Shown: positions 7,391 to 29,364 of the stretch, in pieces
Layout of the letters: each line of letters begins with the position of its first letter
Numbering within the stretch: position 1 is the stretch's first letter
NCBI RefSeq assembly: GCF_000337215.1
Contig: NZ_AOHZ01000049.1
Location: 1-32,929 of the forward strand
DNA: 32,929 bases
Source: Natronolimnohabitans innermongolicus JCM 12255
Lineage (GTDB): Archaea; Halobacteriota; Halobacteria; Halobacteriales; Natrialbaceae
Direction: 5' to 3'
The notes under the pieces: model-generated
Told to the model about the DNA's origin: nothing
The model's input: the letters and a program-made list of their open reading frames with translations, nothing else
Database searches by the model: none
Translations under genes and position numbers: made by a program

Positions 7391-10168
7391 ATGAGCGAAC
7401 TCGCGGAAGCGTACCGCCTCGAGTACTTCGAGGAGGAAGGATTCGAGCGCAAGGAGTGTCCCTCCTGTGGCGCACACTTCTGGACCCGCGACCACGATCG
7501 GGAGACGTGCGGTGAGCCGCCCTGCGAGGAGTACGGCTTCATCGAGAACGCCGGGTTCGACGAGGAGTACAGCCTGTCGGAGATGCGGGAAGCATTTCTC
7601 TCGTACTTCGAGGCCAACGACCACGAGCGAATCGACCCCTACCCCGTCGCCGCGAACCGCTGGCGCGACGACGTCTTGCTGACGCAGGCGTCGATCTACG
7701 ACTTCCAGCCGCTGGTGACCAGCGGTCAGACGCCGCCGCCGGCGAACCCGCTGACGGTCTCTCAGCCGTGCATCCGGATGCAAGACATCGACAACGTCGG
7801 GAAGACGGGCCGCCACACGATGGCCTTCGAGATGATGGCCCACCACGCGTTCAACACGCGCGAGGACGTCGACGAGGGCGAGTACGCCTACCACGGCGAG
7901 GTCTACTGGAAAGACGAGACGGTCGAACTCTGTGACGGCTTCTTCGAATCGCTTGGCGTCGATCTCGACGAGGTCATCTACATCGAGGATCCGTGGGTCG
8001 GCGGCGGCAACGCCGGTCCCGCGATCGAGGTTATCTTCCGCGGCGTCGAACTCGCCACGCTCGTCTTCATGTCCATGGAACAGGATCCCGACGGCGAGTA
8101 CGAGATGAAAGACGGGAACCGCTACAGCCCGATGGACACCTACATCGTCGACACGGGCTACGGCCTCGAGCGCTGGACGTGGGTCTCCCAGGGCACCCCG
8201 ACCGTCTACGAGGCGGTCTACCCCGACATGATCTCGTTCCTCAAGGAGAACGCAGGCCTCGAGCACACCGACGAGGAGGAGGAACTCGTCCACCGGGCCG
8301 CGAAGCTGGCGGGTCACATGGACATCGACGAGGCCGAGGACATGGAGACCGCCCGCGGCGAGATCGCCGGCGAACTCGGCGTCGACGCGACCGACCTCGA
8401 GGAGTTGATGGAACCCCTCGAGTCCATCTACGCCATCGCAGACCACTGCCGCACGCTCGCGTACATGCTCGGGGACGGCATCGTCCCCTCGAACGTCGGT
8501 ACGGGCTATCTCGCCCGGATGGTGCTCCGTCGCACCAAGCGGCTCTGTGATACCGTCGGCGTCGACGCGCCGCTGGACGAACTCGTCGACATGCAGGCCG
8601 AGCGCCTCGCCTACGAGAACCGCGACACCATCCGCGACATCGTCCGCACCGAGGTCGAAAAGTACCGCGAGACCCTCGAACGAGGGGGCCGCCGCGTCGA
8701 GAGCCTCGCCAAGGAGTACGCGAAAACGGGCGAACCGATCCCGACCGAGGAGCTGATCGAACTCTACGACTCCCACGGGATCCAGCCCGACATGGTCGCC
8801 GAAATCGCCGACGAGGCCGGCGCCGAGGTCGACGTGCCGGACGACTTCTACAGCCTCGTCGCCGAGCGCCACGACACCGTCGAGGCCGCCGGAGAGAGCG
8901 AGGACGACGAGGACGAGCGCCTCGAGGACCTGCCGGAAACCGAGAAGCTCTACTACGACGACCAGCAGCGCACGCAGTTCGAGGCGATGGTGCTCGACGT
9001 CTTCGAGCGCGAGGACGGCTACGACGTCGTCCTGGATCAGACGATGTTCTACCCCGAAGGCGGCGGCCAGCCGGCCGACCGCGGGACGCTCTCGACCGAC
9101 GACGCGACCGTCGAGGTCGAAGACGTCCAGATCGAGGGCGGCGTCATCCTCCACCGAACCGACGAGAACCCCGGCAAGGGCGAGTTCGTCAACGGACAGC
9201 TAGACGCCACCCGCCGCAGGCAGCTGATGCGCCACCACACGGCGACCCACATCGTCATCCACGCCGCTCGACAGGTCCTCGGCGAGCACATCCGCCAGGC
9301 CGGCGCCCAGAAGGGAGTCGACAGCTCCCGGATCGACGTCCGCCACTACGACCGGATCTCCCGCGAGGACGTCAAGCGAATCGAATCCCTCGCGAACGAG
9401 ATCGTGATGGACAACACCGCCGTCACCCAGGAGTGGCCCGACCGCCACGACGCCGAAGCCGAACACGGCTTCGGCCTCTATCAGGGCGGCATCCCGCCGG
9501 GTGAGCAGATCCGACTGATCCACGTCGACGAGGACGTCCAGGCCTGCGGTGGCACTCACGTCTCCCGGACCGGCGAGATCGGCACGATCAAAGTGCTCAA
9601 CACCGAGCGCGTCCAGGACGGCGTCGAGCGGCTCACCTTCGCCGCCGGCGACGCCGCCCTCGAGGCGACCCAGCGCAAGGAGGACGCCCTCTACGAGGCC
9701 GCCGAGATCTTAGACGTTTCCCCCGAGGACGTCCCCGAGACCGCCGAGCGCTTCTTCGAGGAGTGGAAGGCCCGAGGCAAGGAGATCGAGGACCTGACCG
9801 AACAGCTCGCGGCGGCTCGAGCGGGCGGCGGCGGCGACGCCGAGGAGGTCGAGGTCGGCGAGCGGACGGCCGTCGTCGATCGCATCGACGCCGACGTCGA
9901 CGAACTGCGCGCGACGGCGAACGCCATCAGCGACGAAGGCAAGATCGCGGTGCTGGGAAGCGGCCAGAACAGCGCTCAGTTCGTCGTCTCCGTGCCCGAC
10001 GGCGCCGGGATCAACGCCGGCGAGGTCGTCGGCGAACTCGCCTCGAGGGTCGGCGGCGGCGGCGGCGGTCCGCCGGACTTCGCACAGGGCGGCGGCCCGA
10101 ACGTCGAGGATCTGGACGAGACGCTCGAGGACGCGCCGGACGTGTTGCGTCAGGTTCAGGACGCCTGA
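7391..10168 (+). CDS. alaS: alanyl-tRNA synthetase (archaeal type)
   Basis: This 925-residue cytoplasmic class II synthetase charges tRNA-Ala. It has the archaeal N-terminal cysteine-rich segment (CPSCGAHFW...[11 protein letters not shown]) before the catalytic core. The core includes [13 protein letters not shown] and [10 protein letters not shown] and the long helical tRNA-recognition region. The editing domain carries HHTATH (zinc ligands His616 and His620) and CGGTH (Cys719, His723), the four zinc-binding residues that clear mischarged Ser-tRNA and Gly-tRNA. The C-terminal DHHA1 domain ends in a Gly-rich loop ([15 protein letters not shown]). Length and all motifs are normal. It stands alone, with a T-rich stop signal about 50 bases after the stop codon. 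Confidence 0.97.
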
Positions 10169-10216
10169 CAGCTTCGCAACGAGACGCCGCGGTGAGTTTC
10201 GGTTCCGGTTTCGGAA

Positions 10217-10229
10217 ATCACTCTTTTTG
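10217..10229 (+). terminator. T-rich terminator after alaS
   Basis: AATCACTCTTTTTGC follows the alaS stop by about 50 bases. Archaeal termination often needs only a T-run. No stable hairpin is beside it. Confidence 0.3.
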
Positions 10230-10433
10230 CAAGTGGGCTCGAGAGCGCTTTCACTCGAGTCGATACGACCGCTGCTCTACGGTGAGAGAGATCGGGAACG
10301 GTCGTTTCCGGTGATCGTTGATGGGGTGGGTTGCGCCGGACGTCATTCCCGACTCTCGCGCTCGAGGGGTTCCGTTCACCAGCCGTAGATATTGTGTGTT
10401 TTGTAATTCGATTATCGTACAGTATAACCGAAA
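10230..10433. other. intergenic, no gene seen
   Basis: The stretch between alaS and the CPBP gene becomes AT-richer towards 10390-10440. I see no RNA gene or convincing small reading frame. It marks the left edge of the accessory block. Confidence 0.5.
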
Positions 10434-10442
10434 GCTAAAAAG
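10434..10442 (+). promoter_or_regulatory. TATA box of the CPBP gene
   Basis: GCTAAAAAG sits 25-33 bases before the ATG at 10467, which supports that start over an upstream in-frame GTG at 10446. Confidence 0.45.
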
Positions 10443-10466
10443 TAGGTGTATTGTGATTATCACGGC

Positions 10467-11189
10467 ATGGTTGAAACAATATACAGCCGGGCCGCAAGGC
10501 GAATCGGACACGGCAAGCAGATCGGCATCGCGGCGGCGCTCACCATCGTCGCCGTTCTCGTTGCGGGGATGTTCAGTGCGATCGGAATGCAAATCACGGG
10601 CCGGTCCGACCCGTCACCGTACACGTCATTTCTTGCGACTGGGTTCGGATTCGCGGCTGTGGCACTGGCGTATCTGACTTACACGAATCGTGGACTCGGG
10701 TATATCGACGGCGCCGTGCCGACAGCGCGATCGATCTCGTTGGGCGTCGGACTGGGCGTTGGTATCTTCACCGCACAGACGGCGATCGATCTAACCGCCC
10801 GAATAGCTGGCGTGTCGATGGGCGTCGATCAAGCGGCGAGTCAACTGACCGGATCGGTACCGCTTCTTGTCGCTGCCATCGCGATCAATCTCGCTTTGAT
10901 CGGTCCGGCAGAGGAGTTATTTTTCCGAAACGTCCTTCAGAAACGACTCGCGGAGTCCTTCCGGACAGGTACTGCGATCGGTCTGACAAGCCTCATATTT
11001 GCTCCGCTCCATCTCGGAAACTTCCACGGTCAATCGGCTCTTGCGATCGGTGTCTCCCTCAGTGGCGTCGTTATCGCATCGGTTCTTCTCGGCATCGCGT
11101 TCGTCCGGTACAACCGACTCGAGGTCGTCGGAATCGCACACGGAATTCAGAACTCACTCGTTCTCGTTACGGTGTATCTGTTCTTGTGA
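10467..11189 (+). CDS. CPBP (Abi/CAAX-like) intramembrane metalloprotease
   Basis: This 240-residue protein from MVETIYSRA has about eight membrane helices. It shows all three CPBP motifs: EExxxR in GPAEELFFRNVLQ, a His in IFAPLHLGN, and HxxxN in GIAHGIQNS. These residues bind the metal in the Rce1/MroQ class. Known members cleave prenylated proteins or process peptides, and in lactic acid bacteria members of this family encoded in bacteriocin loci give self-immunity. The gene is AT-richer than alaS. Downstream, convergent, is a small membrane protein gene, and beyond that the two tiny peptide genes. A part in peptide processing or immunity is inferred from that setting. Confidence 0.86.
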   Translation: MVETIYSRAARRIGHGKQIGIAAALTIVAVLVAGMFSAIGMQITGRSDPSPYTSFLATGFGFAAVALAYLTYTNRGLGYIDGAVPTARSISLGVGLGVGIFTAQTAIDLTARIAGVSMGVDQAASQLTGSVPLLVAAIAINLALIGPAEELFFRNVLQKRLAESFRTGTAIGLTSLIFAPLHLGNFHGQSALAIGVSLSGVVIASVLLGIAFVRYNRLEVVGIAHGIQNSLVLVTVYLFL

Positions 11190-11445
11190 GCACTCACACT
11201 CGTCCGCTCGCGAGCGTCGTCGTTGCCCCCTTCGGGAACGGGACGTCACACCTCACAGTCGGCGGTTCGGTTGAACGACGACCGCCGGGTTCGGGAATCG
11301 GTGAGCGACGATGGGTGCGCGGTCGGCCGGTCCGGAAAGCGAGAGCGGAGCGAGGGCGGTACGGGGTACCGTCGCCGAAAGTGCTACCAGAGTCTCTCCT
11401 GGCACGTTGTCCGGGGTTCGGTCGCTGGGACGCGGTCGGAGTGCG
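11190..11445. other. intergenic between convergent genes, no gene seen
   Basis: This holds the 3' ends of the CPBP gene and the convergent small membrane protein gene. Short open frames here have no start signal, no SD site and untypical composition. I see no RNA gene. Confidence 0.45.
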
Positions 11446-11661
11446 TCATACGGCACCAGTCGCGTCTCGGTCGGCCACTGTGAGTAGCCAGTAGATGATG
11501 GCGAACGTTGCGATCAGGAAGGCTACTCGAACGGTTCCTGATTCGAATATATTCGGGAGTGGTGAATACAGCATTCCGACGAAGAATACCACTCCAGTAC
11601 CAATTCCGATACCAAACCACGTGGTGGCCGTTATCGATTTTGCTAGTTCTATTATCGACAT
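11446..11661 (-). CDS. small two-helix membrane protein
   Basis: This 71-residue protein has two clear membrane helices, about residues 13-32 (WFGIGIGTGVVFFVGMLY) and 45-63 (VAFLIATFAIIYWLLTV), with a short polar loop between and a charged tail (ADRD). The minus-strand sequence AGTTTTTTG, about 25-32 bases before the ATG at 11661, could be its TATA box. No family is recognised. Small two-helix proteins of this kind are often immunity or holin-like proteins. It lies between the CPBP protease gene and the tiny peptide genes and shares their strand. It could also be an unrelated hypothetical protein. Confidence 0.62.
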   Translation of the reverse strand: MSIIELAKSITATTWFGIGIGTGVVFFVGMLYSPLPNIFESGTVRVAFLIATFAIIYWLLTVADRDATGAV

Positions 11662-11699
11662 GCATTAGTATATGGCAGTAATAGACAAAAAACTATCTC

Positions 11700-12150
11700 T
11701 TGGACGGAGATCTTTGACCGACGTGTACCGGGAACCGCTCACGCACTGACAGTGTGCCATAGTGACTATTCAACCGATTCGCACACGGATCGCACAGTTT
11801 ATTCACGGGTCGCTTCGCTCCCCCTTTTCCTCGCAGTTCTCGCTCACGTCGCCCGCTCGAACTTCCCCCCAGTCGTGCGATCAGATGTGGTTTGGCGTTC
11901 AGCGGCTACGATAGCTGAGGCTGTCTACTTCGTTCTCTACGATTGATCACGTAAACAGAGACTACCGAGAAAATGCGGCCGGTTCGGCCTTCGACGTGGA
12001 TACGCGTACCACGCTCGGACCACGACAGAAACTCGATAGGTCGACTGGGAGACAGCCGCTCGCGGCGTAATCGCTTCGGTATTCACTTTCTCGGCCGTGA
12101 AAAATGGGCACCGTTTACGCCAGCGGAGGCGAAAACGAACGCGATTCTGT
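11700..12150. other. 450-base stretch without a supported gene
   Basis: Short frames on the plus strand (64 and 62 codons) have mixed composition, no membrane or domain pattern, and no start signal. The sequence could be a decayed gene but I cannot match it to one. No direct repeats or insertion-sequence ends were seen. Confidence 0.4.
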
Positions 12151-12168
12151 CGGTGGGATAACCCACCG
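12151..12168 (-). terminator. hairpin after the tiny peptide genes
   Basis: CGGTGGG-ATAA-CCCACCG is a perfect 7-base stem with a four-base loop. It starts 22 bases after the stop codon of the second peptide gene. On the minus strand it is followed by a T-containing stretch (GTTCGTTTTCG). This fits a terminator or a stable 3' end of a short peptide mRNA. Confidence 0.6.
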
Positions 12169-12190
12169 GTCTTCGTGTTCGATACGACTG

Positions 12191-12307
12191 TTAGTCGGTT
12201 ACGCCGTCGCCGTGATAGGCGTCGTACAATTCGTTGGTCGCGGTAGCACCACCAACGAATCCGCCGGCGAAAGCGGCGGCAGCGACGGGGGCAGCGAGTA
12301 CGTTCAT
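12191..12307 (-). CDS. tiny Gly/Ala-rich peptide, 38 residues (peptide B)
   Basis: This gene is too short for usual gene finders. The peptide runs from ATG 12307-12305 to TAA 12193-12191. It opens MNVLAAPV, then a hydrophobic Ala-rich run (residues 8-14), two Gly pairs at 15-16 and 19-20 (GGFVGG, giving GxxxG spacing), then a polar, acidic end with Tyr28, Tyr31, His32 and Asp38. It has no Cys. It shares its opening Met-Asn-(Ile/Val)-Leu with peptide A, whose stop is 30 bases upstream. No Shine-Dalgarno site of its own is seen, so it may be translated by reinitiation. A hydrophobic core with GxxxG and a charged end recalls class II bacteriocin peptides. Alternatives are a small membrane regulator or a chance frame. 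Confidence 0.62.
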   Translation of the reverse strand: MNVLAAPVAAAAFAGGFVGGATATNELYDAYHGDGVTD

Positions 12308-12337
12308 GATTTTGTGGGATGTTCTGGTAAGGGATAG

Positions 12338-12457
12338 TTACGCACCTTCACGAAGTCCGACGACGGTCGCGGCGCCCGCTGCGGCACCCGCAGCACCGGA
12401 CTTGCACGCGGTGCTGGCCAAGCATGCGCCGACCACCTTTGGCGATAAGATGTTCAT
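12338..12457 (-). CDS. tiny Cys/Gly/Ala-rich peptide, 39 residues (peptide A)
   Basis: The peptide runs from ATG 12457-12455 to TAA 12340-12338. It has a perfect Shine-Dalgarno site seven bases upstream, rare in this mostly leaderless genome, so it is very likely translated. It opens MNILSPKVVGACLAST, with Cys12 and Cys18 six residues apart, then a Gly/Ala core (residues 20-30, with Gly21, Gly24 and Gly28 forming small-xxx-small spacing), and ends VVGLREGA. The two Cys could form a disulfide or a thioether; no radical-SAM or lanthionine enzyme is nearby. Together with peptide B it forms a two-gene transcript ending at a hairpin. The divergent ABC exporter starts 271 bases away. A halocin-like two-peptide product is inferred, not shown. 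Confidence 0.72.
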   Translation of the reverse strand: MNILSPKVVGACLASTACKSGAAGAAAGAATVVGLREGA

Positions 12458-12464
12458 ACTGGTC

Positions 12465-12472
12465 TCACCTCC
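12465..12472 (-). promoter_or_regulatory. perfect Shine-Dalgarno site of peptide A
   Basis: GGAGGTGA on the minus strand pairs fully with the archaeal 16S rRNA 3' end and is seven bases before the ATG at 12457. It is the strongest such site noticed in the window and decides that a gene this short is real. A seven-codon frame (ATG 12477) overlaps it and ends at an ATGA overlap with the gene start, possibly by chance. Confidence 0.8.
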
Positions 12473-12502
12473 ACCATGACTTGATACAAACGGTATCGTG
12501 CC

Positions 12503-12540
12503 ATAAGCGATCAATGGTGATTGGTCAAAGATACTAAAGT
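12503..12540 (-). promoter_or_regulatory. candidate promoter of the tiny peptide genes
   Basis: On the minus strand CTTATGG at about 12510-12504 lies some 25 bases before a start near 12480, which would give a leader of about 25 bases containing the SD site. A second AT-rich box, CTTTAGTATC at about 12539-12530, lies further up. Exact use is unknown. Confidence 0.35.
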
Positions 12541-12693
12541 TTTCTGTATCGTGTTACATTTAAATCATATCCGCCACAACACGAGCAGGTCAGGTAGTTC
12601 TCTCACGAACAAAACGCAGAGTCGGTAACGACGACGCATGACGCCGTTTCAAGCAGTAGCAGGCCACTTCATCATACCTGACAATATAGAAAA

Positions 12694-12701
12694 GTTTTTT
12701 A
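12694..12701 (+). promoter_or_regulatory. TATA box of the ABC exporter operon
   Basis: TTTTTTAT lies 28-35 bases before the ATG at 12729. This placement supports the ATG (MVSAEGSN) over the in-frame GTG at 12708, which would overlap the expected transcription start. Confidence 0.5.
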
Positions 12702-12728
12702 TCTTCGGTGCACCCGGGAGAACGTATA

Positions 12729-13781
12729 ATGGTCTCTGCCGAAGGATCGAATCCGGTAACCGGGGGCGATGCGAACGCCGAATCCGCTGTTTCGGTCTCG
12801 AACCTCGAGAAGGAGTACGGGAGCGGAGACGACGCGGTGCAAGCCGTAAACGGCGTGAGCTTCGACGTGGAACGGGGGACCGCGGTCGGCATTCTCGGAC
12901 CGAACGGCGCGGGGAAGACGACCACGATCAAGTCGCTCCTGTCGTTGATCTTCCCGTCGGAAGGAAACATCTACGTCGAGGGTATCAACGTCCACAAGGA
13001 ACCGAAGCAGGCGTTTCGCCACATGGGTGCGATGCTCGAGGGAGCACGAAACACCTACTGGCGGCTCACCGTTCGTGAGAATCTCGAGATCTTTTCAGTT
13101 ATCGCAGGACTCGATTACCGCGAACGCGGCGACCGAATCGACGACCTCCTCGAGCAGTTCGGCATCGACCACAAAGCCGATACCGTCGTTCGCGAACTCT
13201 CGCGGGGGCAAAAACAGAAGGTTTCGCTGGCGACGGCGATGGCTCGCGACGCCGACGTCGTCGTTCTCGACGAGCCGACGCTCGGCCTCGACGTCGAAAG
13301 CTCGCTCGAGTTGCGTCGCGAGCTTCGTCGACTCGTCGAGGACGACGGAATCACCGTGTTGCTGTGCAGCCACGATATGGACGTGATTCAGGACGTGTGC
13401 GACCGGGTCATCATCATGAACGACGGCGAGATCGTCGCCGACGACACGGTCGGAAATTTACTGGATCTGTTCGACACGCAGGCGTACGAAGTAACCGTCG
13501 AAGGCGAACTGGACGACGCCGACCGTCGGCGACTCGAGACTGCGTTCGATCTCACCGATTTCGATCGGCGACGCGGGTCGACGACGTTTCAGGCCCACGT
13601 CACCGGTGACGATTTTTACTCGCTGGTCGAATCGCTTCGTGCGATCGGGGCGGCGGTAGAGGCGTTCGACACCGTCGAACCCGACCTCGAGGAGGTTTTT
13701 CTTCGAATTACCGACGACGAGGAGGACGAACGGCCGACGGAGACACCGGTGGCACAAGCAGCTAGCGGTGGCCCTCGATGA
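12729..13781 (+). CDS. ABC transporter ATP-binding protein (ABC-2 exporter type)
   Basis: This 350-residue cytoplasmic ATPase is of the DrrA/CcmA-like class. It has Walker A GPNGAGKT at residues 57-64, the signature motif LSRGQ at 157-161, Walker B with Asp181-Glu182 in VVVLDEPTLGLD, and the switch His in LLCSHDMD. After the ATPase core comes a C-terminal domain of about 100 residues common in drug, lipid or peptide exporters, ending in an acidic tail. Its stop overlaps the permease start by four bases (ATGA), so the pair is one operon. The operon is divergent from the tiny peptide genes. Cargo is not shown by the sequence; peptide export or self-protection is one possibility and lipid export another. 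Confidence 0.9.
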   Translation: MVSAEGSNPVTGGDANAESAVSVSNLEKEYGSGDDAVQAVNGVSFDVERGTAVGILGPNGAGKTTTIKSLLSLIFPSEGNIYVEGINVHKEPKQAFRHMGAMLEGARNTYWRLTVRENLEIFSVIAGLDYRERGDRIDDLLEQFGIDHKADTVVRELSRGQKQKVSLATAMARDADVVVLDEPTLGLDVESSLELRRELRRLVEDDGITVLLCSHDMDVIQDVCDRVIIMNDGEIVADDTVGNLLDLFDTQAYEVTVEGELDDADRRRLETAFDLTDFDRRRGSTTFQAHVTGDDFYSLVESLRAIGAAVEAFDTVEPDLEEVFLRITDDEEDERPTETPVAQAASGGPR

Positions 13782-14632
13782 GTGCACCGACGGTCGACGA
13801 CGCCGCGGCCGCCGACGGAGCGCAACCTGACGAGCGGGACGCCGGCGTGTTGCTGTTAGTGTGGACAATCCTCCGCATGAATTTCCTGCTCATGGTCAGG
13901 TACCGCGTGAATTTCGTCGCACAGATCGTGGGGATGTACCTCTTTTTCGCGGTCATCTTCTTCGGCGGACAGGCTGCCGTCGAGAACGTCGGCGAGGGTG
14001 GAATCGGTTCGCTCGGATCGACGCTCGACGCGCTCATCGTCGGCTGGTTCCTCTGGACGATGGCCCAGAGCGCGTACTTCAGTCTCTCGGGTGAAGTGAC
14101 TCAAGAGTCGCGCTGGGGGACGCTCGAGCAACTGTACATGTCTCCGTACGGCTTCGGAACGATCATGCTCACGAAGGTCTTCGTGAACATGCTCTTGAGC
14201 CTCGTCATGGGCGGGATCATGCTGGCGCTGATTCTCCTCACGACCGGCCGAACGCTCTCGCTCGACGTGATTACGGTCCTTCCGATCGCCGTCCTGGCGT
14301 TGCTCTCGGTGGTGGGTATCGGGTTCGTCTTCGCCGGACTGACGCTCATCTACAAGAAACTCGGGAGCGTCTCACAGCTCATGCAGTTCGTTATTCTCGG
14401 GCTCGTCGCCGCGCCTGCGGCGGAGTTCTCCGTGCTGAATCTCCTGCCGATCACCCAGGGATCTGCGATGTTACAGGAGGCGATGCGAAACGGCGTCCGT
14501 CTGTGGGAGTTTTCGGCGGTGGAGCTCGCCGTTCTCGTCGGAACCGCCGTCGTCTACTTCTCCATCGGGTACGTCGTGTTCCAGCTCTGTTCGCACGTCG
14601 CCCGAAAACGCGGTGTGATGGGCCACTACTGA
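13778..14632 (+). CDS. ABC-2 type transporter permease
   Basis: This 284-residue protein has six predicted membrane helices. Examples are FVAQIVGMYLFFAVIFFGG, NMLLSLVMGGIMLALILL, VLALLSVVGIGFVFAGLTLI and LVGTAVVYFSIGYVVFQL. A conserved polar stretch (EVTQESRWGTLEQLYMSP) follows helix 2; it resembles the coupling region TLE.L..SP of ABC-2 permeases such as DrrB. A polar N-terminus of about 25 residues precedes helix 1. It is coupled to the ATPase gene by ATGA overlap and is followed by a GC hairpin. A dimer of this protein would form the channel. Confidence 0.9.
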   Translation: MSAPTVDDAAAADGAQPDERDAGVLLLVWTILRMNFLLMVRYRVNFVAQIVGMYLFFAVIFFGGQAAVENVGEGGIGSLGSTLDALIVGWFLWTMAQSAYFSLSGEVTQESRWGTLEQLYMSPYGFGTIMLTKVFVNMLLSLVMGGIMLALILLTTGRTLSLDVITVLPIAVLALLSVVGIGFVFAGLTLIYKKLGSVSQLMQFVILGLVAAPAAEFSVLNLLPITQGSAMLQEAMRNGVRLWEFSAVELAVLVGTAVVYFSIGYVVFQLCSHVARKRGVMGHY

Positions 14633-14637
14633 GGCTG

Positions 14638-14656
14638 GGCGGCTCGGTTCGCCGCC
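14638..14656 (+). terminator. GC hairpin after the ABC operon
   Basis: GGCGGC-TCGGTTC-GCCGCC lies 5 bases after the permease stop codon. It is a 6-base GC stem without a clear T-run, so it may act as an mRNA end rather than a true terminator. Confidence 0.4.
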
Positions 14657-14748
14657 ATTCCGTCGAGACCACACGAGAGATCCTCCGTCGAAGACGGCCT
14701 CGGCCAAAAATCGAAACGCTCGCCTCGCTTCGTCCCCTCGAGTCAGTC

Positions 14749-18212: not shown

Positions 18213-20426
18213 TCAGTCGGCCGCGACCTCGAGGTTTGCCTTCTCTTCGGCGCCGATAGCCTCGACGATGAGTTCGGCGACGTCGACGATTTCGATCTCC
18301 GCTTCGTAGCCGCCGGTCTTGCGACCGTCCTCGTACATCGTCATGCACATCGGACAGGCGACGACGAACTTCTCGACGTCGGGGCCGTTGTCGGTGTCCT
18401 CGAGGGCTTCCCGAATCCGTTCTTCGCTGGGCTTGGGCTCCTCTTCGAAGTCCATCCAGAGGCCGCCACCGCCGCCGCCACAACAGAAGGAGTTGTCGCG
18501 GTTGCGGGGCATCTCGTCGAGTTCACAGCCCGTCGCTTTGATGAGTTCGCGCGGGGCCTCGTACTCGTCGTTGTACCGGCCGAGGTGACACGGATCGTGG
18601 TAGGTGACCGTGTAGTCGAGTTCGGTCCCATCGAGGTTGAGTTTGCCATCGGAGACGAGTTCCTCGACGGCCTGGGTCCAGTGGTAGACCTCGATCTCGC
18701 CGTCTTCGTTCCACTGCTCGTCGTACTCGAAGGGCATCATCGGGTCGTCGGCGAACTCGTCGAAGTTGAGTTCCGGATACTCGTTTTTGAACGTGTTGTA
18801 GGAGTGAGGGTCCGTACAGACGATCTTGTCGAACTCGCAGTCCTCCCAGGTCTCGACGTGGTGGCCGGCCAGTTCGACGTAGAGCAGTTCCTCGCCGACG
18901 CGACGGATGTCGTTACCGTCGAACTTCTCGTCGTCGAAGAGGATGCCGAAGCTGACGTCAGCTTCCTTCAGAATGGTCGCCAGCGAGCGGGCGACCTGCT
19001 TGTTGCGCTCGTCGTAGCTCGGGAAGTCGCCGACGTACCAGAGGTAGTCGACTTCCTCCTCGCGGGCGTCGGTGACGTCGAACTCGAGGTCGTCGCTCCA
19101 GTCGCCCCGGTTGCGTGGGGAGTCTCCGAACGTGTTGCCGTTTTGCATGACGTTCTGGAAGACGTCCTGCATGCTGGGGGCGACGTCGCCCTGGTCGGTC
19201 ATCTGGCGGTTGAGTCGAGTGAAGGACTGCAGGTGCTCGATGTCGACCGGACAGGCGTCCATACAGGCCATACAGGCCATACAGGACTCCATCGTCTCGG
19301 TGTTGATCACGGACGTGCCGCCGTCGGCGATGATCGGCTTCTCCTCGCCGCCGGCGTCGAGGTCCTCACGGTATTTCTTCAGATCGAGGATGACGTTTCG
19401 TGGATCGAGCGGTCGGTCGGAAGCCTTCGCGGGACAGACCGACGAACAGCGACCGCACTTCGTACAGGCGTCCTGATCGAGAATTTCCTTCCAGGTGAAG
19501 TCCTCGATGGACTCGGCGTTCGTCGCGTCGAGGTCCGACGGGACGTTCGGCAGGCGCTTGCCCGCCTTCTCGTCGGCCGTGACGACGTTGGCGAACGATG
19601 AGATCATGTGGAACGGCTTGGCGTAGGGGATCCACGCGATGAAAAACAGCGCCAGCAGCGAGTGAGACCACCAGAACAGCCAGTGAATCGTTTCGGCGTT
19701 GTAACCGAGGTCGCTCACCGCACTGTAGTCGGCGCCGTTGAGCGTCGCCTCGACCGCGGCACCGGTCGTCGGCACGTCGATCGCATGGAACACCATCGCG
19801 ATTCCATAGCCGACGAAACTGACGACCTCGTGGTCGGGCATGCCCGTCGCGTAGATACGGGCGCCCTCGAGGAGGAAGCCACCGACGCCGAGACCGAACA
19901 GCGTCCAGATGAAGATGTCGTCCTCGTTGGAGGTGTGACGACCCCAGAGGCGGTGATTACGGACCCAGTAGCGCCGGTAGATCGCCATCCCGATCCCGAC
20001 AACAAAGAGCAGGCCCATCGCGTCGACGATAAACTGGTAGGAGAGGTAGAAGTCGCCCTGCCAGAACTGATAGTCGAAGAAATTATCCGTCGCGTACAAC
20101 TGGAATCCGATAATCAACGTTGCGATGAACAACGTCAGAAATCCCCAGAGAATAAATGAGTGCATCAGACCGCCGTAGAGGTCTCTGTTGAAATTCTTCT
20201 CGTTAGTGATGACGGTCCTTGCTGCGCCAACGATACGACCTGGTAGATCGTCAAGCCGCGTGAACGGATCGTCGTCCCCCTGAGCGTACCGGCTGAAACG
20301 CCGGTAAATGCCGTACGCGAGGACGGAAAGCGTAATTACAACGAGGAGATAAAACAGCGCGTAGCCGACGCTGCTTATACCCAGATAGGTTTCTCTCCCC
20401 ACATCCGACTGTGCTATGACGTTCAT
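18213..20426 (-). CDS. membrane-bound Fe-S oxidoreductase (HdrDE/CCG-domain fusion)
   Basis: This protein has 737 residues from ATG 20426. Its N-terminal half has about six helices with His residues of a NarI/HdrE-like cytochrome b domain (LMHSFILWGFLTLF, WWSHSLLALFFIAW). It is followed by two 4Fe-4S ferredoxin motifs: Cys321-324-327-331 (CTKCGRCSSVCP) and Cys382-385-388-392 (CMACMACMDACP). The C-terminal half carries CCG domains of heterodisulfide-reductase D or GlpC type (YHDPCHLGRYNDEYE, then SFCCGGGGGG at about residues 646-655). It thus joins quinone-side membrane chemistry to a cytoplasmic thiol/disulfide or organic-acid site. Haloarchaea make no coenzyme B/M, so the true substrate is unknown. 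It is transcribed alone from its own box. Confidence 0.88.
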   Translation of the reverse strand: MNVIAQSDVGRETYLGISSVGYALFYLLVVITLSVLAYGIYRRFSRYAQGDDDPFTRLDDLPGRIVGAARTVITNEKNFNRDLYGGLMHSFILWGFLTLFIATLIIGFQLYATDNFFDYQFWQGDFYLSYQFIVDAMGLLFVVGIGMAIYRRYWVRNHRLWGRHTSNEDDIFIWTLFGLGVGGFLLEGARIYATGMPDHEVVSFVGYGIAMVFHAIDVPTTGAAVEATLNGADYSAVSDLGYNAETIHWLFWWSHSLLALFFIAWIPYAKPFHMISSFANVVTADEKAGKRLPNVPSDLDATNAESIEDFTWKEILDQDACTKCGRCSSVCPAKASDRPLDPRNVILDLKKYREDLDAGGEEKPIIADGGTSVINTETMESCMACMACMDACPVDIEHLQSFTRLNRQMTDQGDVAPSMQDVFQNVMQNGNTFGDSPRNRGDWSDDLEFDVTDAREEEVDYLWYVGDFPSYDERNKQVARSLATILKEADVSFGILFDDEKFDGNDIRRVGEELLYVELAGHHVETWEDCEFDKIVCTDPHSYNTFKNEYPELNFDEFADDPMMPFEYDEQWNEDGEIEVYHWTQAVEELVSDGKLNLDGTELDYTVTYHDPCHLGRYNDEYEAPRELIKATGCELDEMPRNRDNSFCCGGGGGGLWMDFEEEPKPSEERIREALEDTDNGPDVEKFVVACPMCMTMYEDGRKTGGYEAEIEIVDVAELIVEAIGAEEKANLEVAAD

Positions 20427-20449
20427 GTACAATGACGTGGTGTGCTGTG

Positions 20450-20457
20450 ACTTAATT
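20450..20457 (-). promoter_or_regulatory. TATA box of the Fe-S oxidoreductase gene
   Basis: The minus-strand sequence AATTAAGT is 24-31 bases before the ATG at 20426, which supports that start over an in-frame TTG six bases upstream. Confidence 0.45.
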
Positions 20458-20614
20458 CTTGTTACACCGAACCAATTCTCGATCCGACGCCGTCTATCGA
20501 AAACGTTCCATCTATTCTTAGTTCATAATGGATAGACACTCAGACGTTCAGAATAGTACTGTTAAATATAAACCAATACGTCGTCGGTGAAATGGACTCG
20601 GTCGAGAGTCGTAC

Positions 20615-21487
20615 TCACAGCGGGACGTCGACGAGGTAAAACAGTCCGAGCCACGCATAGCTTCCGACGACGTACCACTCGACGGCATGCCGGACCGTCG
20701 TCGGACCAACACGATTTCTCCCGAAGGAGAACGTCGCGACCAGCGTCCCGGCGAGCAGCACCACCGGGAGAACGATCGACGGGAGTCCCTGATGAAAGAA
20801 GCCGAGCAGAATCGCCATCGAGACGGTGAGACTTACAGCGATCGTCCCCGCGACTGCGGCCCGTGAGAAATCGCGCCCGAGCGAGGCTATGCCAGCGCGT
20901 CGGTCACCGTCGCTGTCGAGATACGCACCGATCGTATCGTGACAGATGTCCCACAGCCATGTCGCAGCGAAGATCGCCACCAATCCGGCCGTGAGTCCGC
21001 CGTAGACGGTCCAACCCATCACGCTGAACATCGAAATACTAGTCACCGTCACGAGCGTCGAGATGCCGGTGACGTCCAGATGGTTGAAGACGAGCGGGTC
21101 CGCGATCAAGATCACGTACAGGAGCGTCGCGGCCGCAAGAAACGATTGCCCGACGAGCGCCGCCAGTCCCAGTCCGCCGGCGAGCATCGCAGCCCCCATC
21201 CAGAACGCCTGCGTTTTGGTGACCAGCCCCGACGGGATCGGACGGTACGGTTTCTCGATCGCGTCGGATTCAGCGTCGAAATAGTCGTCGTGAGTGAGGA
21301 TGCTACCACGGACGAGGAGCATACTCGCGAACGCGATCCCTGCAGTGAGGTCGAGTCCGCCGTCCTGGACGGTAATCGCCAGGGGCAACCCGAACAGGAC
21401 CACGTCGATCGCGAAGTAGCGGATCGGTGTCACCCGATTGAACGTCACGAACGCGCGGAACGCGTCACTCGTCGACGACGTTGACAT
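20615..21487 (-). CDS. UbiA-family prenyltransferase (first)
   Basis: This 290-residue membrane protein has eight or nine helices. The two Asp-rich motifs that bind prenyl diphosphate through magnesium are present: DDYFDAESD at residues 67-75, followed by KPYRPIPSG, and DxxxD at Asp180/Asp184 with Asp191 in LWDICHDTIGAYLD. KPxRPIPSG is typical of the geranylgeranylglyceryl-phosphate and chlorophyll/homogentisate branches. The usual Asn before the first Asp is His66. It transfers a prenyl chain to an acceptor that cannot be told from sequence. The gene overlaps the upstream phosphoribosyltransferase gene by 23 bases, so they are one operon. A second UbiA gene lies 2.3 kb away. Confidence 0.88.
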   Translation of the reverse strand: MSTSSTSDAFRAFVTFNRVTPIRYFAIDVVLFGLPLAITVQDGGLDLTAGIAFASMLLVRGSILTHDDYFDAESDAIEKPYRPIPSGLVTKTQAFWMGAAMLAGGLGLAALVGQSFLAAATLLYVILIADPLVFNHLDVTGISTLVTVTSISMFSVMGWTVYGGLTAGLVAIFAATWLWDICHDTIGAYLDSDGDRRAGIASLGRDFSRAAVAGTIAVSLTVSMAILLGFFHQGLPSIVLPVVLLAGTLVATFSFGRNRVGPTTVRHAVEWYVVGSYAWLGLFYLVDVPL

Positions 21488-22073
21488 TGTTCCCCTCGAT
21501 CTCGATAGCGATCGATGTCGTTACCTCGATCCCGGTCTCCTCCGCGACGCGATCGACGCCGTTTTTTCGCGTCTTTTCGACGATGCAGTGGGCTTCCTCA
21601 ACCGTTGCACCAGCCTTCTCGATGGCCTTGATCATCGCGATCATCGTCCCACCGGTACTAATCGTGTCGTCGACGATCGCGACCGCGTCGCCCGGTTCGA
21701 TGCCATTCAGGTAGAGGTCACCCGAAAAGTACTCGGAATCGATGTCGACCGCTGACTGACGGTCGGCATTTATCTCGTACGTATACCAGCGAGCGACCGC
21801 GAGTGGCAGCGAATACTCCCGTGCGATCAGTACTCCGAACGGAAGTCCCTTGTCCTCTTCGACTGCGAGTTTGTCGACGTTGAACGAGCCCGACGCCGAA
21901 AGCAACGCTCTCGCCGCCTCGAGTGTCCGGGGCTGCAGTGCCGGAAGCTGGTCGGTTAACTGATTGACCGTCGTCGCGTGCTCACCCGAATGGGTTACGT
22001 CAGCGCTCTCGTAGACCGCGGTAATTTGTTCCGTAGCTGCTTCTAAATCCAACTCGGTGTGTTTCACCGACAT
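21465..22073 (-). CDS. phosphoribosyltransferase (APRT/OPRT-like, type I fold)
   Basis: This protein has 202 residues from ATG 22073-22071 (MSVKHTELDL). The PRPP-binding motif VDDTISTGGT is at residues 134-143, and VEEDKGLPFG at 71-80 is the loop near the flexible hood. It has about 55 N-terminal helical residues before the fold, as in haloarchaeal regulators of the GfcR/PurR type, but no clear helix-turn-helix. It may salvage a base, or sense PRPP. The 23-base overlap with a UbiA gene is notable, because one UbiA branch (decaprenylphosphoryl phosphoribose synthase) uses PRPP as substrate; a functional link is only inferred. An upstream in-frame start at 22367 would read through the divergent promoter and is rejected. 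Confidence 0.82.
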   Translation of the reverse strand: MSVKHTELDLEAATEQITAVYESADVTHSGEHATTVNQLTDQLPALQPRTLEAARALLSASGSFNVDKLAVEEDKGLPFGVLIAREYSLPLAVARWYTYEINADRQSAVDIDSEYFSGDLYLNGIEPGDAVAIVDDTISTGGTMIAMIKAIEKAGATVEEAHCIVEKTRKNGVDRVAEETGIEVTTSIAIEIEGNNVNVVDE

Positions 22074-22352
22074 TACGCACAAAGAATAATATGTTTGTTT
22101 AAATATTTTTCTATTATAATTGAATATAATATAGTACGGATTTATATGTCGGCCGGACAAGCGGGCTGGCAACCAGCGACTCCCATCCGTGAACTGGGTC
22201 GCGAGACGACGGTCGGAGTAGACTCTCCCACAGCTCCGTCGTGGAGTGAACGCCAGCATTGCCCCACCGGAACATATACATCCATGCTGTAATATAAAAC
22301 TCAAAATAACTATATAGTTAGTAGAAATCGGTTTGGGACGAACTAATTGCCG
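22074..22352. promoter_or_regulatory. divergent regulatory region between phosphoribosyltransferase and P450 genes
   Basis: The region is AT-rich at both ends with a GC-richer middle. On the phosphoribosyltransferase side, minus-strand ATATTTAAAC at about 22108-22099 is a TATA candidate 26-35 bases before the start, and ATTATA-(6)-TATAAT (22113-22130) is an inverted repeat behind it. On the P450 side lies the palindrome described at 22307-22320. The middle (22150-22280) has no gene. Confidence 0.5.
22307..22320 (+). promoter_or_regulatory. 14-base palindromic TATA region of the P450 gene
   Basis: TAACTATATAGTTA is a perfect palindrome centred 40 bases before the P450 ATG at 22353. It includes TATATA and so could be both the TBP site and a repressor operator. 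It implies a leader of about 14 bases. Confidence 0.45.
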
Positions 22353-23750
22353 ATGACGAGAACACACGCAAGGAAGAATACGGAACCTGCGGCAAACGCT
22401 GTTGACCGACCACCCGGTCCCGACGGATTACCGGTCATCGGGAGTACGGTATCGTTCGTCCGTGATCCGCTCGACTTCGTCCGATCGATCGGTGAGTACG
22501 GAGACGTCGCGAGCTACGAGGCATTCGGTCGCGAGTTCGTGGCGGTCTCGAATCCCGAACTCGTCGAGGCTGTTCTCGTTTCCCGTGACGACGAGTTCTG
22601 GAAAGGAGAGTTCGAGAGTGAGTTCGGTGATATCGTCGCCCCAGACGGCGTGTTCTACGCCGAGGGTAGTGACTGGCAGCGGCAGCGGCGTCTTCTGCAG
22701 TCACTGTTCACGCCGAAACGGATCGAATCGTACGCGGCCGACATGGTCGATGAGACGGTCCGGCTAGTCGAAGGGTGGGCCGACGGAACGGTCGTGAACG
22801 TTCGAGACGCACTGTCCATGCTCACCCTGGGTGTGCTGACCCGATCGCTGCTCGATCTCGATCTCGACGACGAGCGCGCGGACGTCGTCGTTCGGATGGT
22901 TCATGCCCTCGGCGAGTACGTCGACGCCGAGATGCTCGGCGTCCGAGCAGCACTCCCGTCGTGGCTGCCGAGCAAACCGGAAAGGAAATTCGATCGAGCG
23001 ATGGCCGACCTCGACGCCCTCGTTGAATCGCTCGTCCACGACCATCGCGAGTCGAAAACGGAAAGTGACGATCTGCTTTCGCTGCTCGCGATGGCCGAGT
23101 ATCCCGACGGCACGAAGCTCTCGCCGAGCGCAGTGTCCGATCAACTCGTTCAGTTTCTCGTCGCCGGACACGAGACGAGCGCAACCGCACTGACGTATTC
23201 CTGCTGGCTAATCGCCAATAATCCCGCGACCCAGCGGCGTCTCGCGTGCGAAGTCGATACCGTCTGTGGAGACCACGACCCGACGATCGACGACCTCGGT
23301 TCACTGACGCTCTCGGAAGCCGTAATCAACGAGTCGATGCGTCTGTATCCACCGTTTCCCTTCATTCACCGTCAGCCCCACGAACCGACCACGCTCGGGG
23401 GATATCGAATTTCGCCGGAGTCGACCCTCCAGTTACCGTTGTCTTCTGTTCATCTGGACGAACGCTGGTGGCACGATGCCGAATCGTTCCGTCCGGATCG
23501 GTGGCTTCCGGAGGCGGAACAGAACGGCGATTGGAACCGTGACAGGCCCGAGTACGCGTACTTCCCGTTCGGAGGTGGACCGCGTCACTGTATTGGCATG
23601 CGATTTGCCATGACCGAATTACAACTCGTACTCGCGACAATGGTCCGCCGAATGGAATTCGAACCCGTCACTGAGTCTATCGACCCCACGTGGAAGGTTT
23701 CACTCGATCCGGGTCCGGTCAAGCTTCGGGTCCATGTCCGTGACCGATAA
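22353..23750 (+). CDS. cytochrome P450
   Basis: This soluble P450 has 465 residues. The proline-rich start PPGPDGLPVIG leads into helix A. The I-helix oxygen-activation motif is AGHETS at residues 271-276, ExxR is Glu327/Arg330 in NESMRLYPPFP, and the heme loop FPFGGGPRHCIGMRFA has ligand Cys413. It resembles bacterial CYP102/CYP4-like fatty-acid or terpene hydroxylases in layout, with an I-helix and proximal loop near consensus. Ferredoxin and reductase partners are not in the window. It is flanked by two UbiA genes and a membrane methyltransferase, so an isoprenoid substrate is a fair inference. The gene is divergent from the phosphoribosyltransferase operon and convergent with the second UbiA gene. 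Confidence 0.93.
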   Translation: MTRTHARKNTEPAANAVDRPPGPDGLPVIGSTVSFVRDPLDFVRSIGEYGDVASYEAFGREFVAVSNPELVEAVLVSRDDEFWKGEFESEFGDIVAPDGVFYAEGSDWQRQRRLLQSLFTPKRIESYAADMVDETVRLVEGWADGTVVNVRDALSMLTLGVLTRSLLDLDLDDERADVVVRMVHALGEYVDAEMLGVRAALPSWLPSKPERKFDRAMADLDALVESLVHDHRESKTESDDLLSLLAMAEYPDGTKLSPSAVSDQLVQFLVAGHETSATALTYSCWLIANNPATQRRLACEVDTVCGDHDPTIDDLGSLTLSEAVINESMRLYPPFPFIHRQPHEPTTLGGYRISPESTLQLPLSSVHLDERWWHDAESFRPDRWLPEAEQNGDWNRDRPEYAYFPFGGGPRHCIGMRFAMTELQLVLATMVRRMEFEPVTESIDPTWKVSLDPGPVKLRVHVRDR

Positions 23751-23780
23751 CGGTTTCGCGCATTAACGCGCTAAAATACC

Positions 23781-23808
23781 GATAGATAGAGATCGATAGA
23801 TAGAGATC
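23781..23808. repeat. perfect 14-base tandem duplication
   Basis: GATAGATAGAGATC occurs twice head-to-tail in the 73-base gap between the convergent P450 and second UbiA genes. It is probably slippage. No function is suggested. Confidence 0.7.
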
Positions 23809-23823
23809 GCGCGTACGACGGAG

Positions 23824-24744
23824 CTACGACAGATAGAACGCGACTGCAAACGAAACGAAAAACACTGCGTTGATGACCGTGACAGCGCGGTCCGTAGCCT
23901 CTCCCCCGTCCCACGACCAGAGAATATACGACCCGAACCCGCCGAGAACGGCGAAAAACGGGACGACGTAGTAGACGCCGAACAGTATTGGGGTAAGAAC
24001 GAACGTAGACGGCAACGCGACGACCAGTATTCTGGTGAGGCGGTCTTTCCCGTAGCGAACGACGAGATTATCGACACCGGCTTTCGCATCGTGCTCTGCG
24101 TCTTTGAGGTCCTGGTACGAGATCGTAAGGATAATTACGAGCGCCAACACCGTCGCTATTTGCCACGCATCGGCCGATAGAGAGGTTCCGACGGCCGCAC
24201 TACCGAGGATTACGGAGAGGAATCCGCCGATACCGAAACAGAGGAGACTCGAGATCGCTCCGTTTTTTAGACGAATCGGCGGGACCGTGTATACCATCGC
24301 GGCGAGAACCCACGCCAGTGTGCTCAGGAATCCGAGGTAGTTGACGGTGGCGCCATATGCGACGGCGAATCCCATCAACGTCACTCCGACGGCAATCGCT
24401 TCACGTTCCGAAATGAGTCCCTGTGTGGTGGCCCTGTCGGCGTTGGACTCCTTATCGATCTCTTTGTCGGTGATATCGTTTATGAACCATTGCCCCCAGT
24501 GTGCGAGCGTCATCGCGATAATCACTCCGACGAGATTACTCCATTCCATGCCCCCGGGACCGATCGGTTTCATCGCCACCACGATTCCAACCCCGGTCAA
24601 CGCAACCCACGCGAGCGTGATCGGGAGCATTTTCGATATTCGTCGCACCGTCAGGAATGCCGTTTCAGTCGACCAGGCGAAGTAAATCCCGACGAGTAGC
24701 ACGAACGCTGCATTGAGGACCGCTTGGTTCGATATACCTTCCAT
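23824..24744 (-). CDS. UbiA-family prenyltransferase (second)
   Basis: This 306-residue protein has about nine membrane helices. The first Asp motif is NDITDKEID (Asn89, Asp90, Asp93, Asp97) and the second is DLKDAEHD (Asp212, Asp215, Asp219) in SYQDLKDAEHDAKAG. It differs clearly from the first UbiA protein: the segment after motif one is SNADRATTQG rather than KPYRPIPSG, and a hydrophobic N-terminal helix (AFVLLVGIYFAWSTETAF) precedes the core. It is thus a separate subfamily and not a local duplicate. The DxxxD layout fits chlorophyll-synthase-like or MenA-like members. The methyltransferase gene lies 66 bases upstream on the same strand. Product unknown. Confidence 0.88.
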   Translation of the reverse strand: MEGISNQAVLNAAFVLLVGIYFAWSTETAFLTVRRISKMLPITLAWVALTGVGIVVAMKPIGPGGMEWSNLVGVIIAMTLAHWGQWFINDITDKEIDKESNADRATTQGLISEREAIAVGVTLMGFAVAYGATVNYLGFLSTLAWVLAAMVYTVPPIRLKNGAISSLLCFGIGGFLSVILGSAAVGTSLSADAWQIATVLALVIILTISYQDLKDAEHDAKAGVDNLVVRYGKDRLTRILVVALPSTFVLTPILFGVYYVVPFFAVLGGFGSYILWSWDGGEATDRAVTVINAVFFVSFAVAFYLS

Positions 24745-24749
24745 GTGCT

Positions 24750-24793
24750 ATAGATATAAATCAATCATTTATATTATTAATGATTATTGATGG
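24750..24793. promoter_or_regulatory. AT-rich inverted repeat between methyltransferase and second UbiA gene
   Basis: The 66-base gap holds TCAATCATT...AATGATTATTGA, whose core AATCATT-(9)-AATGATT is an inverted repeat at about 24763-24785, and minus-strand TTTATATC close to the UbiA start. It could be a terminator for the methyltransferase, or an operator and promoter for the UbiA gene. Confidence 0.4.
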
Positions 24794-24810
24794 CTCGATC
24801 ACCGTTCGGC

Positions 24811-25395
24811 TCAGCTCCGGTCTTGCACGTCCTCGAGAAGCCGACGGAAGGTCCGACTGTCGACGAATCGGGGAACGTTTTCGCAGTATTCCTCGTACTC
24901 GCCCCCGTACTGCTCTGCCAACCACGTTTCCTCGGGACGAGGGTGGATCCACAGCCAGGCAATACAGAGCGTCAACAGCGGAACGAGTAGCTCCGCGGCC
25001 GCCGTCGCTATCAGTCCCACTGCGACCCCGATGAACCCGACGTACTGTGGATTCCGCGTGTATCGGTACGCACCGCCGGTGTACAACTGCCCCTCGAGTC
25101 CGAGCGTTGCGGTTCGAATATAGTACGCCGAGACCGCGGTGAATACCACACTGAACGCGAGAACGGCACCGCCGGCGTATCTGATCCACAGTGGTATCGC
25201 GAGGGTCCCGCTATTCAGAACCGCGAGCACCAGAACCGACCCGGTGAAGATCGTACTCGCCGTCCAGTACGTCCAGAAGCGCCAGTCTCTGTCGCCCGGC
25301 GGCCAAAAGGAAAACGAGTCGCTGACCACCGTTCCGACGATACCGACGAGTAGCACTATTTGTGCGCCGAGCCCAGCGACAAACACTTCGTCCAT
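24811..25395 (-). CDS. isoprenylcysteine/phospholipid-type membrane methyltransferase
   Basis: This protein has 194 residues and five predicted helices. The C-terminal signature of the ICMT/PEMT superfamily is present: GAYRYTRNPQYVGFIG, the RxP.Y..G part that binds SAM, and then RPEETWLAEQYGGEYEEYCE with the final VPRFV. The family methylates isoprenylcysteine carboxyls, phospholipid amines, steroids or quinone-like lipids at the membrane; the archaeal substrates are not known. Its position beside a UbiA prenyltransferase and a P450 suggests methylation of a prenylated lipid. The start at 25395 has an AT-rich box about 25-35 bases upstream. Confidence 0.85.
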   Translation of the reverse strand: MDEVFVAGLGAQIVLLVGIVGTVVSDSFSFWPPGDRDWRFWTYWTASTIFTGSVLVLAVLNSGTLAIPLWIRYAGGAVLAFSVVFTAVSAYYIRTATLGLEGQLYTGGAYRYTRNPQYVGFIGVAVGLIATAAAELLVPLLTLCIAWLWIHPRPEETWLAEQYGGEYEEYCENVPRFVDSRTFRRLLEDVQDRS

Positions 25396-25660
25396 TCGTA
25401 TACATTAATCTGAATATTACATAAATAAAAATTTTGAACTGGGCAACAATCACGTTCGCCGTCGTCGTAGTACGGATCAAGAATGAGTAGACGTCCCCAG
25501 TCCGTCCCGGCGAACTCGAATGATCGACTGAGCCGTCGAAGGGATTTTCGGCTATGGCAACGCTTACGACGTCGAACGCAGGTTACGATTCTCGCGCGTT
25601 TTCGAGCCCGGTGACACCTCGATAGTGTCCGCATCCGTACCAAGGCTACACGGCAACAGC
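25396..25660. other. intergenic, right edge of the prenyl block
   Basis: The first 45 bases are AT-rich and hold the minus-strand TATA candidate of the methyltransferase gene (TTTTTATTTATG, about 25433-25421). The rest is GC-rich with no supported gene or RNA. Confidence 0.45.
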
Positions 25661-25668
25661 CTTAAATA
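25661..25668 (+). promoter_or_regulatory. TATA box of the HTH protein gene
   Basis: CTTAAATA lies 25-32 bases before the ATG at 25693, a standard leaderless promoter. Confidence 0.6.
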
Positions 25669-25692
25669 GCCGCCCGTCGGGAGTGTCCACTC

Positions 25693-26286
25693 ATGAACGA
25701 CAAAACCGAGGAACTCCGAGATATCTTCACCGACGTCACCGACGGCGAAGAGACCGTCACCGAATCGCAAGAAGACACCCGCGGGTCGCTCGAGCGCGAC
25801 GAGCGGTCGACCGAAGAGCGCCTCGAGAGCGTCGTCCAGCAGATGCGCGAACGGTACGGGTTCGACGACGTCTCGCTGTCGGACGACGAGCTCATCACGG
25901 TCGCGAAGTCCTTCTACGAAGGCGACAGCGACGCCGAGATCGCCGACGCGCTCGGCGTCGAGCCCGAAACCGTCTTCGAAGCCCGAATGGCGTTGCACCT
26001 CGTCGACGAGGACGACGCCGACGAGGTCGACCTCGCGGCGATCCGCAACCGCGAGGAGGACGACGCCACCCTCGCCGACGAGTACGACGTCGACGAAACT
26101 CAGATTCGGCGCTACCGCCGCATCGCCGCCGCCGAAGACGAGTCCCGGACCGCAAACGACCGCTACCGCGACGAGTTCGACAGCGTCCTCGCCGACTCCG
26201 AACTCTCCGAGCGCATGACCACCGACGTCCGCGAAGACGGCCTCGAGGACGCGACGGAGGGCATGGAGACGGACGTGGAGTTCTAA
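25693..26286 (+). CDS. haloarchaeal HTH protein, conditioned-medium-induced protein 4-like
   Basis: This 197-residue, very acidic protein opens NDKTEELRDIFTDVTDGEE. From memory this fits the conserved haloarchaeal family annotated as conditioned medium-induced protein 4. Two helix-turn-helix-like segments are visible: residues about 60-90 (LSDDELITVAKSFYEGDSDA followed by EIADALGVEPETVFEARMAL) and 115-145 (LADEYDVDETQIRRYRRIA). It probably binds DNA or a transcription partner. Name and role are by recollection of the family; the HTH reading is from the sequence. The gene stands alone with its own promoter, and is followed by hairpins. Confidence 0.75.
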   Translation: MNDKTEELRDIFTDVTDGEETVTESQEDTRGSLERDERSTEERLESVVQQMRERYGFDDVSLSDDELITVAKSFYEGDSDAEIADALGVEPETVFEARMALHLVDEDDADEVDLAAIRNREEDDATLADEYDVDETQIRRYRRIAAAEDESRTANDRYRDEFDSVLADSELSERMTTDVREDGLEDATEGMETDVEF

Positions 26287-26307
26287 GAACCGAACTTTTT
26301 CCTCTCG

Positions 26308-26326
26308 GGTCGGCCGAAGGCCGACC
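26308..26326 (+). terminator. hairpin after the HTH protein gene
   Basis: GGTCGGCC-GAA-GGCCGACC is a perfect 8-base stem with a three-base loop, 22 bases after the stop codon. A second inverted repeat CCGAGCGC-(11)-GCGCTCGG follows at 26356-26382. Together they isolate this gene from the next one. Confidence 0.5.
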
Positions 26327-26455
26327 GCTCGAGCAAAAACTTCGATGAAAAAAGGCCGAGCGCTCGCTTCGCTCGCGCTCGGTACAATCGTCTACGGCAT
26401 ACAGCACAGATATTCAACTCGCGGATAGCTACGCGTCCTCCGTTTTTGGACGAGG

Positions 26456-26465
26456 CTTTTTATAC
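26456..26465 (+). promoter_or_regulatory. TATA box of the Cas4-like gene
   Basis: CTTTTTATAC lies 22-31 bases before the GTG start at 26487, which supports that GTG as the first codon of a leaderless mRNA. Confidence 0.55.
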
Positions 26466-26486
26466 CAAGGGACGGCCAGACCGTCC

Positions 26487-27173: not shown

Positions 27174-27320
27174 CGGGGCGATCCAGCGTGATCGAGGAAA
27201 TTCGTGCGAACGGAAAACACAGCTAATGGCGCCTGAAACTAACGTATTCGGACGTTTCGATCGTCAGGCCAAGCCGATACCGAGAGACTTTTACTCGAGT
27301 TCGAGTAATGGGTTTTACCG

Positions 27321-27680: not shown

Positions 27681-27751
27681 CTTTCGCGCGAGCGGTACGG
27701 GGCGAGTCACCGGCGGGTCAGGGTAGTCGCTCGAAAAGAAGAGACGCGGCG

Positions 27752-28336: not shown

Positions 28337-28404
28337 TCGGCTCCAACTCGGCTCATCGCGGCAAAAAATGTATCGTCTGCTCCGAGGGCGACGACGCCGT
28401 GCGA

Positions 28405-29340: not shown

Positions 29341-29364
29341 ATCCGGCCGTTATGCTCGACATCA

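Follow-up and report, generated by a model that had tools for sequence, protein, structure and literature searches.

The window analysed in this study, a stretch of 32,929 nucleotides from the 4.6-Mb genome of the haloarchaeon Natronolimnohabitans innermongolicus JCM 12255, carries two very small frames in tandem on its reverse strand. Peptide gene 1 (12338-12457, ATG at 12457) has 39 codons and specifies a peptide of 39 residues, MNILSPKVVGACLASTACKSGAAGAAAGAATVVGLREGA; peptide gene 2 (12191-12307, ATG at 12307) has 38 codons and specifies 38 residues, MNVLAAPVAAAAFAGGFVGGATATNELYDAYHGDGVTD. The lengths of the frames and the 30-base gap between them (12308-12337), as reported in an earlier note on this DNA, were borne out in the sequence, and so were the Met-Asn-(Ile/Val)-Leu opening common to both peptides and the two Cys residues of one of them, which proved to be peptide 1. 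The perfect Shine-Dalgarno site GGAGGTGA also lies where it had been placed, at 12472-12465 on the same strand, with a spacer of 7 bases between it and the ATG of peptide 1. Peptide 2 lacks such a site. A possible TATA element, TTTAGTA (12532-12538, reverse strand; the alternative is TTTAAAT at 12558-12564), can be proposed from the sequence only.

Both peptides are hydrophobic, and neither is strongly cationic or amphipathic. Single-sequence structure models are helical, with low confidence, and were given little weight. Other features emphasised in the earlier note stood only in part. GxxxG spacing is present in both peptides, but it is expected by chance from their composition and is not significant. 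A perfect 7-bp hairpin does follow peptide 2 (12151-12168, reverse strand), but its presumed role as a terminator is unsupported, given that the window contains 45 such hairpins and that no T-run follows this one on the peptide strand. The two peptides resemble each other weakly (local P 0.18 and global P 0.02 in comparison with shuffles). The case for the pair gains little from the hairpin, from the GxxxG spacing or from the opening that both peptides share.

The pair is located within an accessory insertion (10169-14709) flanked by alaS on one side and by an alpha/beta hydrolase gene on the other. This insertion is absent from the sister species Natronolimnohabitans sp. A-GB9 (genome G001), a member of the same genus, in which the two flanking genes are separated by about 60 bases, compared with about 4.5 kb in the window. 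No clear target-site duplication was seen by eye at the ends of the insert. On the forward strand it encodes a CPBP/Rce1-like (CAAX-type) intramembrane protease (10446-11189), which matches PF02517 (E 2.2e-14) and contains all three motifs of the domain, EExxxR, FxxxH and HxxxN, at residues 156, 185 and 232, so that its membership of this group is clear; relatives of the protein, among 61 genomes, share only 29-37% identity with it. The strand of the pair also carries a possible 71-residue hydrophobic membrane protein (11446-11661), for which the case is weak and in favour of which a 93-residue frame (11384-11665, reverse strand) was dropped. Divergent from the pair are the forward-strand genes of a DrrA/NodI-like ABC transporter ATPase (12729-13781), whose domain matches are confined to ABC_tran and the general AAA domain, and of an ABC-2 type permease (13778-14632; Pfam ABC2_membrane_3). 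The earlier reading of the pair did not take in this protease and exporter insert, and it is because of the insert that a functional reading can be offered.

Comparison of the alaS/hydrolase junction with its counterparts at L129, L130 and L133-L135 shows that it is variable in the family. G001 and G018 have little or nothing there, and other genomes hold a different cargo of about 1-7 kb, for example (as judged by reading translations) a tricarboxylate-transporter-like set and an HD-domain protein. In another part of the window, 12.55 kb (18215-30765) are 98.9% identical to G001 (L128, 6025-18574), while the flanking genes show only 76-90% identity at the DNA level; this points to a recent exchange, by transfer or recombination, between two species within the genus.

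Relatives of the exporter and of the peptides

The best match of the window's ATPase is found in G001 (64% identical), and the permeases share 69% identity. In G001 the exporter genes are part of a 7.4-kb stretch; in the window's genome, 424 bases separate the sequences that flank it. Taken together with the comparison at alaS, this places the exporter at a different site in each species, with none at the other's site, a pattern that fits gain as well as loss. The G001 ATPase gene is preceded, in the same direction, by a 21-codon frame, MLGGILPDIDLGLGLGLEIDG, which has AAAGGAGGTGA shortly ahead of its ATG. Judged by the rate in the window's genome, about 0.006 sites of this kind would be expected in 700 bases. 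No CPBP gene was identified in the G001 exporter insert.

At the end of the exporter-carrying stretch of G001 lies a copy of a repeat of about 100 bp (L045, 11365-11466), which is present in about 30 copies (75-94% identity) in the window's genome. Beside the G001 exporter (L045, 6758-11313) are the genes of three large proteins, of unknown family, that carry Arg-Arg signals at the N terminus, together with a signal-peptidase-like gene.

The exporter family is common (239 of the 391 genomes examined across the class), and about 50 other loci of the family, when examined, showed no tiny frame between genes that followed a perfect Shine-Dalgarno site. These loci led us to reject the general rule that the exporter family is always accompanied by tiny peptide genes. 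The association is therefore limited to the genus, with two cases, and an exporter from so common a family need not be a dedicated one.

Convincing relatives of either peptide were found neither in 199 close genomes nor in the 391 genomes across the class (an overlapping set), although with short Gly/Ala-rich queries only fairly close relatives are detectable. Plasmids yielded no relative by DNA or protein, neither peptide was matched in Pfam or NCBIfam, Rfam gave nothing near threshold, and viral contigs contained no exact DNA match and no relative of the permease. Several weak candidates were discarded: a 43-bp DNA match on contig 31 is a chance similarity of Ala codons within a larger membrane-protein gene, the protein matches to peptide 2 (E 0.007-0.09) fall within much longer frames, and the single match to peptide 1 (E 0.04) is interrupted by a stop. 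Evolutionary proof of coding is thus lacking for want of homologues. Because the sister species lacks the insert as a whole, the peptide frames are absent there and not broken.

Evidence for translation

The window contains two copies of GGAGGTGA, and the copy that does not belong to peptide 1 sits inside a gene. Genome-wide, the pattern GGAGGTGA-N3-10-ATG occurs 40 times, compared with three occurrences of a reversed control pattern. When the sequences at 29 of these sites were read, 26 were found to open frames of at least 66 residues, several of which are plainly genes. The other three open small frames, which is as many as chance would give; two of them lie within larger frames or at their ends, and that of peptide 1 is intergenic.

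Codon usage was assessed by log-odds, with codons scored against the off-frame codons of the window's genes and with simulated frames of 33-60 residues as the null distribution. Peptide 2 scores within the top 0.1-0.3% of the simulated frames and ranks first among all frames in the gene-poor stretch 10150-12760, and peptide 1 is in the top 5-7%. In their synonymous-codon use both are intermediate between random and native, like the CPBP gene of the insert. A 77-residue antisense frame with one hydrophobic stretch (12104-12337, forward strand) overlaps peptide 2 and has a codon score of 0.01, against 0.21.

The proposal that genes below the usual annotation size are translated here is thus supported by the genome-calibrated Shine-Dalgarno signal, by codon usage, and by the tiny frame with its perfect Shine-Dalgarno site beside the related exporter of the sister species. 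In our judgement peptide 1 is likely to be translated and peptide 2 nearly as likely; both overlooked genes, of 39 and 38 codons, are probably real. A TTTA-rich element is located about 80-110 bases upstream of the ATG at both tiny-gene loci (the pair of the window and the 21-codon frame of the sister species), and if it acts as a promoter, leadered transcripts would result. Leaderless mRNAs account for 72% in H. volcanii (PMC7531240).

Comparison with known peptide systems

The combination of hydrophobic peptides, a CPBP protease, an exporter and a strain-specific insertion resembles a bacteriocin cassette. Proteases of the CAAX/CPBP type belong to bacteriocin cassettes, where they play a part in immunity (PMC4517551), and in leaderless two-peptide bacteriocins an ABC transporter serves both export and protection (PMC9865063). 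It should be borne in mind that neither a double-glycine leader, nor a C39 peptidase domain, nor a known immunity gene was found for the pair or the insert, which counts against such a likeness.

A close parallel is with the leaderless two-peptide bacteriocins, that is, enterocin DD14 and its relatives (PMC9865063), which consist of two small adjacent peptides with a linked ABC transporter and with no leader or modification enzymes; no leader was recognisable in the window's peptides and no modification enzyme was found in the insert. The pair may, by analogy, work like a leaderless bacteriocin. In contrast to enterocin DD14, the host is an archaeon, the insert has no DdE/DdF-like PH-domain proteins, and there is no sequence similarity. 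Moreover, the DD14 peptides are highly related to each other (PMC9865063), whereas the two peptides of the window are not.

Class IIb and blp cassettes (PMC4517551) share with the insert a variable cassette character, tandem small peptide genes, a CAAX-type protease, a membrane protein and an ABC transporter. The two peptide genes are adjacent on one strand, separated by the short gap described above, and both peptides have the GxxxG spacing of this class, though composition predicts it. Peptide 1, however, has no Gly-Gly, the Gly-Gly pairs of peptide 2 (residues 15-16 and 19-20) are not preceded by a canonical leader, and the Pfam matches of the ATPase and the permease include no C39 domain. 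The pair therefore falls outside the class IIb definition. No two-component regulator was seen in the insert.

Among haloarchaeal peptides, the pair would resemble the microhalocins (H6/H7, R1, C8, S8, U1; PMC3831642) if it were secreted and active, and its size agrees with their limit of less than 10 kDa. Halocin C8 and its immunity protein, however, are produced from one gene (PMC3831642), while the peptides of the window are separate tiny genes with no carrier protein. Archaeal lanthipeptides (archalans; PMC10105419) are likewise ribosomal peptides of haloarchaea, and at least one archalan is active against other haloarchaea. They require a LanM synthetase, and Cys together with Ser/Thr in the core peptide, whereas no LanM/LanC-like Pfam match was obtained among the genes of the insert and peptide 2 contains no Cys, so that the pair is not a lanthipeptide by definition.

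Competing explanations and biological meaning

The anatomy of the pair, its calibrated start signal, its codon bias and the insertion in both species are established. Building on these, the explanation we favour, and consider quite possible, is that both micro-genes are genuine and belong to a mobile, bacteriocin-like cassette whose leaderless peptides evolve fast and have a function deduced from context. Transcription, secretion, killing, immunity and the cooperation of the two peptides are what we infer for such a cassette. A single leadered transcript would carry both peptides, with the Shine-Dalgarno site driving translation of peptide 1, and the short hydrophobic peptides would be produced with no cleavable leader. 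The ABC exporter would pump them out, and keep them out, after which they might insert, perhaps as a pair, into the membranes of rival haloarchaea. Protection of the producer, or processing of the peptides, may fall to the CPBP protein and possibly also to the 71-residue membrane protein. If peptides of this kind turn over fast, the absence of homologues would be explained.

Alternatively, the pair may encode intracellular micro-proteins instead of exported antimicrobials, either membrane peptides that bind or regulate the neighbouring ABC transporter or a stress or toxin-antitoxin-like peptide. That the peptides are hydrophobic, shorter than 40 residues, next to a membrane transporter and devoid of an export leader agrees with this, as does the fact that no function is known for most of the haloarchaeal micro-proteins that have ribosome support (PMC12482152). 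We nevertheless regard it as unlikely, because the regulator of a conserved transporter should be conserved with it, whereas the exporter of the sister species (64-69% identical) is accompanied by a different peptide and those of other relatives by none; in addition, a search of limited depth revealed no antitoxin-like RNA or gene.

It is improbable, too, that these are chance frames in a non-coding spacer, in which a coincidental Shine-Dalgarno match precedes frames that merely happen to be open. DNA of this kind is rich in frames of 33-60 residues (4.6 per kb, both strands), neither peptide has homologues, and the number of small-frame sites equals chance expectation. Against coincidence, however, the two other small-frame sites lie within larger frames or at their ends, the codon scores (above all that of peptide 2) are high, and the tiny frame beside the sister's exporter is an independent case of a perfect Shine-Dalgarno site. 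We consider it very unlikely that the frames are regulatory leader peptides or an attenuator-type RNA, in which translation would control the neighbours and the peptides themselves would be inert, for although the 21-codon frame of the sister species runs in the direction of its ABC gene and directly precedes it, the window's pair is divergent from its ABC gene and cannot act on it in cis, the next frame after the pair on its strand is weak and about 530 bases away, a tandem of frames whose codons look like those of coding DNA is atypical of a leader, and Rfam gave no match.

The bacteriocin-like reading leads to a broader and more tentative proposal, which we put forward as a minority possibility, that of a mobile haloarchaeal cassette in which unmodified, leaderless, fast-evolving antimicrobial (or signalling) micropeptides are combined with an ABC-2 exporter and a CPBP protease. 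In the literature searched we found no description of such an archaeal bacteriocin class. Annotation would miss cassettes of this kind because their precursors have fewer than 40 codons and no homologues; orphan genes of such size escape standard gene callers as well as homology mining. Few archaeal peptide antibiotics are known at the gene level. If the proposal is true, the insert would be directly testable in a haloarchaeal laboratory host, and the coincidence of a strain-specific ABC-2 exporter insertion with an intergenic frame behind a perfect Shine-Dalgarno site would provide a search rule for archaeal peptide antibiotics.
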